DNA from: Tubiluchus corallicola
Taxonomy: Eukaryota; Priapulida; Priapulimorpha; Priapulimorphida; Tubiluchidae
Assembly (NCBI GenBank): GCA_030141605.1
Contig: JAQGDQ010000039.1
Location: 62,001-126,000, forward strand
Direction: 5' to 3'
DNA: 64,000 nt
Shown piece by piece: positions 4,295 to 15,282 of the stretch. Position numbers and translations under genes: made by a program. The notes beneath the pieces are model-generated. The model had not been told where the DNA came from and did no database searches. It saw only the letters and a program-made list of their open reading frames with translations. Numbering within the stretch: the stretch's first letter is position 1; every line of letters starts with the position of its first letter.

Positions 4295-7200
4295 ATGGCT
4301 TCATACGTGTTTCGTTGTTGTTTCACATTGTTCTGCCTAACATTCTTAGTATTGTGTTTCACAGCGCCGCCGGTTTCTTCACAGTCGTCTGATGAATTGA
4401 CCGTAAGTATCAATTAAATTTGAAATTTAATTGTACAAATTTATTGTCTAAATGAAAACGGAAGTGCTTCATGTTTGCTGGTGAAGAAGTGGTTTCCTTT
4501 TGACGCTTTTTTGTGCTCATTTTTGAGGGGTTTTGTCGTGTGTCAGCACATTATTTTTGCACGTGCACGGTTTAGCAGATGAGGTCTCTTTCTTTTAATC
4601 ATAATACCCTTTTTGAGCAGTTGGTGTGTTTAAATGTAGTTTGACAATTTTTTTTTTGACAATTTTTCAAATCAGTTTTTCGCTTTTGACGATCCGTGCT
4701 TTAATGATTTGAGATCTGACAGATAAATAACAAAAAAGTAGCTCACTGAAACTAAAAACATGGTTAATTAAGGTTGCGCTGTTCCTAACGGATGCTGCCT
4801 TGCTAAAATTGACATTCTCACTGCGTAATACGAACTATAATGCAGCTAAATTTGCCGTTTGCAGAACAAGTATTAGCTAGATAGGCTGGCTAACTTTGCT
4901 TGATACTGATGTTGAGATCTAGGTAACGAGAATGTAAAAAAAATGAAAAGCCAATTCAAGCCTTTAAGCAGTTAATGAAGACAAATTCCACAATTAAGAC
5001 ACGAAGAAAAAACATGACGTTTCAAACTACCACTGTAGTTTATCTTCAGCTGAAAGTTTTGAAACTGGTTTTTATTTGAAGATAAACTGAAACGCCGTGT
5101 TTTTCCTCGTTTTTAGTTGCGGGATTTTTTTTTCATTATTTGTCACTATTCTCGTCATTAAGCATTAAATTTGCCCTACTAAGCATTAAATTTTGTGCTC
5201 TTAAACCGACATCGCCAGTTATTTGCTCTACTACTGTATAATTTCATCCATAATTATCAATAATGCGTAGAATTCCATAAAATGACCAACCTTTAAAGAC
5301 GTTCTCAGCTAAACTCTTGGCAACTGAGGGTGAGAGCTCAAGGTCCTCCAACACATCTTGCAGATTTCTCGCAAGTTTGTTTCTTGAATCAGTGGCATGT
5401 TCTTGGACCATCTAAGTGACCACTGTGTCCTTCAGGATAGCTCCGTATATTTGGCAGATTGAGGCCAGTGAATTTACATGCCACTCATTTAAATCGAAAA
5501 AAACAATCCCAAAGTTTTCAGGTCACTACTCCGATCAAATCCCTCAAGATTGCGAGACATCGGAGTTTTCTTACTAAATTTTAGGATATGTTAGATTCGC
5601 ATGCAGTATTTTGATGTAGTAAATTGTTCTGTGCTGTTACTTATTTTTTACCCGCCGGCAAAAGGTTCCGTACAACCAATAGTGCACTCATTTCAGCTGT
5701 TTCTTTCTGGAGAGAAAAGGCAGGTTTATATTCATCTAGTACATTTGGATGGTTTGTTACAGTATCGCATTTCTAGTATTTACCTTGGTCCTTGTTACAG
5801 AGATGTAACATTTCTTTTAACTTTTTTTGCACTTTGGCAGCCGTCTTAGGGTAATTGTAATTCATTATGATAGATACTCACTACTATTTATTCTATTGTA
5901 TTTATTTTAGATTTAAATCAATGCATAAAGTACTATATTATAAAAACAAAGAAGCAATGCACAATGTAAAATTATACACACAGTACAACTGTATACACAT
6001 TGCATACTGTATGTACTCACTACTCACAAGAGCCGTGCAAGTACTGATTTGAGCGTATTTGAATGCTTAGCTACAGAGATGCTGCAATTTGTTACATTCT
6101 TGGCGGCAATTTTGGATTTTAATAGAAAGCAAATGATAATTTTGGTCGCCTCACAACTTGCTTGGGATATGCCCCGGTATTTCTGCGTGCAACATTTGTC
6201 ATTGTAGTGCCAGGTGCTTTTTGTCACTAAAATATTAAATATACAATATCCTGGATAACATAGATCTCGTTACCAGGGCCGGGTTATGACCTTTTGAAGA
6301 TCCTAGGCTAGTGAAATTATGTGGACCCCTCAGACGGAGCCAGCCTCTAACTCGTTTGCACACATTTTACTCGTGAATATATTTTTGCGACACTACATAA
6401 CTTGAAGTAAATTTATTGCAAGTTGTTTAAATAAACTAGAATAGTTATCTTTTGTTTTGTTAATAAAAATATTCTGTAAGATATACCACTGTATTACTTT
6501 TATCGCAAACCAAATTAGCACATGTTTCAACACAACCGTAGTGAGGAAGCAGATTTTTTCAAAATGTTACCAAAGCTTGAGGGGCCCTAGGCTGTAGCCT
6601 GTATTAGCCTATAGGATAATCTGGCCCTGTCCGTTGCAAAGGCTTGCTGTTACAATATTGTGTAGATCCGATTTTAAAAATTTGCACTTTATTGGAACGA
6701 ATTGTCGTGTCCCAAGTACACCAAGTCCAGAAATCCTGTGTAGCGTGATTGTTTCGTATTCTCAGTTACTAGGAACTTTGAATTGTTATTTAAACGGTGG
6801 TAAACATCGCGCGAATTGCAAAAACCATGATTACTAAATCTTCCGTAGAAGAAACAGTAAATTTCGAGCAATTTAACCGCACTTGACGTTTTCACGCCTC
6901 CGTCTTATCAAATTTACCCTCTTTCAAGACGCAGAAAAAGGACTGTAGTAATAGACACAGAAATACAAAGAAACACTCGGTAGTTTTTAGAATTCCTTTG
7001 CGTTGCGATGTATCGGATTTTCTTCGACACTTGAGCTGTCTATAAGTTCGTTTTAAGACTCTTGTGTGAGTGCTTTATGGACTAATGTTTCTGGGAAAAA
7101 TTCATTGCTGCATATATTACAAATAATAAAATACAATGCGATTATAATTTCACGGGCAGAACGACGGTGTTAAGGTTTATTGTGTAACAAAAGAATAAAT

Positions 7201-15282: not shown

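Follow-up and report, generated by a model that had tools for sequence, protein, structure and literature searches.

Peptides of the allatostatin-C (AstC) family carry two cysteines six residues apart with an aromatic residue after the second (PMC5996578, PMC8786951), and they are also present in annelid, brachiopod and nemertean animals (PMC12919962, PMC8786951). The rings of lophotrochozoan AstC and of the arthropod CC and CCC types are without the proline of arthropod AstC, and the residue after the ring asparagine is V, L or I in lophotrochozoans and Ala in arthropod CC/CCC, a tendency read from one figure and not a definition (PMC8851493). Mature molluscan peptides are given as 13-15 residues long (PMC8514136), arthropod AST-CCC is C-terminally amidated (PMC5627052), and chordate somatostatin is marked by ten residues between the cysteines (in mammals) and an FWK motif (PMC8786951, PMC7536072). 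The SS/AstC genes of human, fly, worm, scallop, starfish and sea urchin share a phase-0 intron in their N-terminal part; an additional intron is found in phase 2 in fly and worm and in phase 1 in the echinoderm SS1 genes (PMC7536072). In Aplysia californica, cyclic AstC, assayed in CHO cells with G-alpha-16, activates AstC-R with a mean log EC50 of -8.2, and the form without the disulfide is weaker (-6.4; PMC8786951). AstC or its receptor is mentioned in the excerpts of PMC12919962, PMC6425005, PMC5747525, PMC8557429 and PMC6523705 as well, with no further AstC peptide sequence given there.

Structure of the precursor gene and its surroundings

Within a window of 64 kb, by which we mean the whole stretch of DNA that was analysed, we found by translation a complete gene of two coding exons and one long intron, encoding 98 residues (36 + 62) and laid out as follows:

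4295..4402, plus strand: coding part of exon 1, translated as MASYVFRCCFTLFCLTFLVLCFTAPPVSSQSSDELT, a predicted signal peptide
4403..15093, plus strand: phase-0 intron, GTAAGT...TTTTGCAG, 10,691 bp
15094..15282, plus strand: coding part of exon 2, with propeptide, AstC peptide, tail and stop TGA
15190..15195, plus strand: KR cleavage site (from the translation)
15196..15243, plus strand: predicted mature peptide GKAYNIKCLFNAVACY, residues 71-86 of 98 (from the translation)
15244..15255, plus strand: RKKR cleavage site (from the translation)
16433..16438, plus strand: candidate poly(A) signal, the first AATAAA 3' of the stop; weak, as a 6-base motif in AT-rich DNA

An upstream TAA at 4286 in the same frame leaves the ATG at 4295 as the first start codon available. 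Exon 1 consists of 36 whole codons, which places the intron in phase 0, as in the SS/AstC genes described in PMC7536072; the donor GTAAGT starts at 4403, directly after exon 1, and the acceptor TTTTTTTTCGTTTTGCAG stands directly before 15094. The best 12-residue stretch of exon 1 averages 2.62 on the Kyte-Doolittle scale, forming a hydrophobic core, and the predicted signal peptide is probably cleaved after VSS (4381), a point judged by eye. Exon 2 translates as NNDLDLFRYYQAMQRLRALQDLAPDYDGSEVAKRGKAYNIKCLFNAVACYRKKRSSDMEYDG and ends at the stop codon at 15280-15282, 24 nt past RKKR; an ATTAAA at 16321 likewise lies 3' of this stop. The joining of the two exons has support of its own from a count of GTRAGT sites: only one of the 27 on the plus strand, that of exon 1, closes a phase-0 frame which opens with ATG and is 20 residues or more in length. 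Translation of both exons thus returned the exon coordinates and the 98-residue length that the initial annotation had given, and the cleavage sites and stop that it had placed in the precursor are present. Long GA, ATT and AAC microsatellites occur at 601-795, 9786-9991 and 12927-13225, respectively, the latter two within the AstC intron.

The peptide GKAYNIKCLFNAVACY is framed by KR before and RKKR after it, near the C-terminus of the precursor, and no second peptide framed in this way exists within the 98 residues. Its ring core, CLFNAVACY, has two cysteines six residues apart (LFNAVA) and an aromatic residue after the second. The Tyr is directly followed by RKKR, with no Gly for amidation, bearing out what had been annotated. 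The peptide would carry a Cys8-Cys15 disulfide and a free C-terminal Tyr; its computed monoisotopic mass is 1776.87 in the reduced form and 1774.85 once the disulfide is closed. Modelled by itself with AlphaFold2, exon 2 reached a mean pLDDT of 55.0 and a pTM of 0.31, and we draw no conclusion from this model.

To gauge chance expectation, six-frame pattern searches were compared with shuffled sequence; the ring patterns were composed after the sequence had been seen, which overstates their surprise somewhat. The strict pattern, a ring framed by dibasic sites ([KR][KR]-x3-12-C-x-[FYV]-N-x3-C-aromatic-x0-2-[KR][KR]), matched once in the six frames and in 0 of 200 block-wise dinucleotide shuffles. 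For the ring by itself (C-x-[FYV]-N-x3-C-aromatic) 0.235 matches were expected and one was seen, and for a loose dibasic C-x6-C pattern 0.785 were expected and three seen; on these counts, the ring taken alone is unremarkable. The six-frame patterns revealed no other ring with an FN core in the window, and a second nearby AstC-like gene, comparable to the local triplication in arthropods, was rejected on that ground. The only other dibasic C-x6-C match, at 47012/47015 on the plus strand, is without an FN core and faces a frame on the minus strand (46822-47151). In database searches, the precursor matched no Pfam family even at an E-value of 10, the window matched nothing in Rfam at gathering scores, and the PDB gave a single chance match at an E-value of 2 (and none for one neighbouring frame). 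A search for relatives in prokaryote genome contigs gave 84 pattern matches, 0 of them confirmed. Two further ideas were also discarded. One was a likeness of the propeptide to vertebrate prosomatostatin: with the human precursor as query, the local alignment score was 18, the shuffles averaged 22.6, and 4574 of the 5000 scored at least as high. The other was that exon 2 opens with an amphipathic sorting helix, for which the hydrophobic moment of 0.11 was equalled or exceeded by 4457 of 5000 shuffles.

Ten neighbouring frames were tested against Pfam, with minus-strand matches to DUF4455 and DUF4773 and none above the curated cut-off for the others. At 43858-62873 on the minus strand runs a series of coiled-coil-like frames, of which two of the seven tested match DUF4455 (E 7.3e-12, above the curated cut-off, and 7.1e-07, just below it); DUF4455 presumably belongs to CCDC180, and the frames probably represent exons of a single large gene of ciliary type. 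The minus-strand frame at 19214-19567 that matches DUF4773 (E 6.4e-13) is a candidate exon of a gene that would be transcribed towards AstC from the opposite side. Between 20900 and 24789 lies a 68-copy array of a 57-bp unit (96% matches; CpG observed/expected 0.35), in which plus-strand frames stay open for up to 702 codons because 57 is divisible by 3; these open frames look like by-products of the repeat.

Family placement and competing readings

Our comparison of cores covers nine residues and four published peptides, from Aplysia, scallop, oyster and crustacean. The crustacean one, SYWKQCAFNAVSCFamide, we take to be that labelled AST-CCC. On this basis, the core CLFNAVACY is identical to that of Aplysia and of scallop at seven of nine positions and to that of oyster and of the crustacean at six, and BLOSUM62 sums are 47 for Aplysia and 41 for each of the other three.

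The Aplysia peptide SHYSSMCMFNVVACY (PMC8786951) shares the spacing of six residues between the cysteines and a C-terminal Tyr without amide. Its core reads CMFNVVACY, its linker before the ring is SHYSSM where GKAYNIK stands here (15 versus 16 residues in all), and its precursor was cloned from a 351-bp PCR product, compared with 297 bp of coding sequence here; the intron of the Aplysia gene runs from 8955 to 20,579, about 11.6 kb versus 10,691 bp (PMC8786951). Oyster AstC, SHIRCLVNVIACY (PMC4200219), has in common the CL-N-x-x-ACY core and, as printed, a Tyr without amide, and differs in the Val that replaces the ring Phe and in its shorter N-terminus. The scallop peptide GHIQCLVNLVACYamide also has Val for Phe in the ring and is amidated, a modified Tyr unlike that of other bivalves (PMC5996578); its gene has a phase-0 N-terminal intron as here, with a second intron unmentioned in the excerpt of PMC7536072. 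Two features that the initial annotation had singled out are therefore ordinary in this company: the free C-terminal Tyr, seen likewise in the printed Aplysia and oyster peptides, and the long intron, a known arrangement. The spacing of the ring, the place of the peptide in the precursor, its cleavage sites and the phase-0 intron all support the assignment to the allatostatin-C family made there.

These likenesses suggest that the gene very probably encodes the AstC precursor of a lophotrochozoan, and probably of a mollusc, an origin that is read from the peptide alone. Two observations count against the molluscan side of this reading. The predicted peptide has 16 residues, above the 13-15 given for molluscs in the excerpt of PMC8514136, and the residue after the ring Asn is Ala, which departs from the V/L/I tendency of lophotrochozoan AstC, though it is not Pro; at this single position the sequence would point away from the lophotrochozoan type. 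The same Ala is the one residue that agrees with the arthropod CC/CCC description (PMC8851493), and the ring FNAV, with cysteines six apart, is that of the crustacean peptide (PMC5996578). Both would favour an arthropod-type AST-CC/CCC gene from a crustacean or insect, to which the comparison in the initial annotation points. We consider this improbable. The core ends in ACY, an ending common to all three molluscan peptides compared, not in the amidated SCF of the crustacean one; the Gly that amidation of the AST-CCC kind requires after the aromatic residue is replaced here by the start of RKKR; Aplysia and scallop, at seven of nine, stand closer than CCC, at six, within this set of four; and the second, phase-2 intron of the Drosophila AstC gene (PMC7536072) is absent.

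More remote still is a gastropod somatostatin-related (SSRP-like) gene, the source lineage of the cone-snail consomatins. Such genes belong to a superfamily in common with AstC, but are described as having three exons with the mature peptide spread over exons 2 and 3 (PMC11336141), whereas in this gene exon 2 alone encodes the entire peptide, and the ring is spaced as in AstC, which makes this origin extremely improbable. Chordate somatostatin is set apart by the six residues LFNAVA between the cysteines. Finally, many random frames are to be expected in 64 kb, and the locus might be an open frame that arose by chance, or a pseudogene. This is very unlikely, given that leader, phase-0 donor and acceptor, KR, RKKR, conserved core and stop all agree without an in-frame stop, and that the strict ring pattern was never reached in the shuffles; because the intron is present, the gene is not a processed copy. 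As an AstC gene of lophotrochozoan type, the locus would by its sequence be complete and ordinary, a new orthologue in a known family.

Promoter-like region and CRE sites

It was the promoter of the somatostatin gene that first led to the identification of CREB (PMC7532970), and we therefore searched deliberately for the CRE. Upstream of exon 1 the following elements were found:

4137..4144, plus strand: palindromic CRE TGACGTCA, a candidate promoter element
4171..4175, minus strand: inverted CCAAT box (ATTGG on the plus strand), a 5-base motif, weak alone
4203..4208, plus strand: TATA box TATAAA, 92 bp upstream of the ATG

This succession of CRE, CCAAT and TATA is a promoter-like layout, new here. 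Perfect CREs number four in the window, at 4137 in the promoter and at 10560, 12619 and 14769 in the intron, and none lies elsewhere; by eye, their flanks are unlike copies of one repeat. None of 100 shuffles of the whole window reached at least four, and a single one of 200 block shuffles did; within 4000-15300, none of these 200 did. The runner-up among 24 palindromes of similar composition (CRE included) counted two. Markov models of the gene region alone never reached four CREs (0/300 at each of orders 1, 2 and 3). For the whole window they did so in 2/300, 2/300 and 17/300 runs at orders 1, 2 and 3, and the order-3 result, which is not rare, counts against a CRE excess.

The half site TGACG occurs at 2.48 per kb in the gene region versus 1.25, about twice as densely. 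CpG observed/expected is 1.23 in the AstC promoter and 0.91 in the intron, compared with 0.79 and 0.73 to the left and right of 4000-15300, and 0.59-0.60 from 24.8 kb to the right end; the high CpG content of the gene region partly explains the excess of CREs. Taken by itself, the CpG profile (4000-15300 versus 24790-64000) is as if the neuropeptide locus had been spared germline methylation. We regard the CRE cluster as a possible lead. That the four sites control the gene, and that CREB control is old across the somatostatin/AstC family and was kept or regained in lophotrochozoans, is a doubtful proposition at present.

Predicted processing and meaning for the family

By analogy with the family, the precursor would enter the secretory pathway of peptidergic neurons and lose its hydrophobic leader; prohormone convertases would then cleave it at KR and RKKR, leaving basic residues for a carboxypeptidase to trim. 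The cysteines would then close the ring, and a 16-residue free-acid peptide would be released that may act on a G-protein-coupled receptor of the somatostatin/AstC type, as Aplysia AstC does. The TATA box and the CRE upstream of it suggest that transcription may respond to cAMP through CREB.

The combination of FNAV with an ACY core, including FNAVAC and NAVACY, was not found in published text (figures and supplements being outside the search), nor were six ring variants with SC endings. The locus is one more orthologue in a family whose presence across molluscs was already established, and it offers a further case in which DNA alone was enough to recognise a short peptide exon lying over 10 kb away from the leader exon. 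Beyond the added orthologue and the core variant, the CRE cluster is the only further point; if true, it would be relevant to the question of whether somatostatin-family genes were ancestrally under cAMP control.
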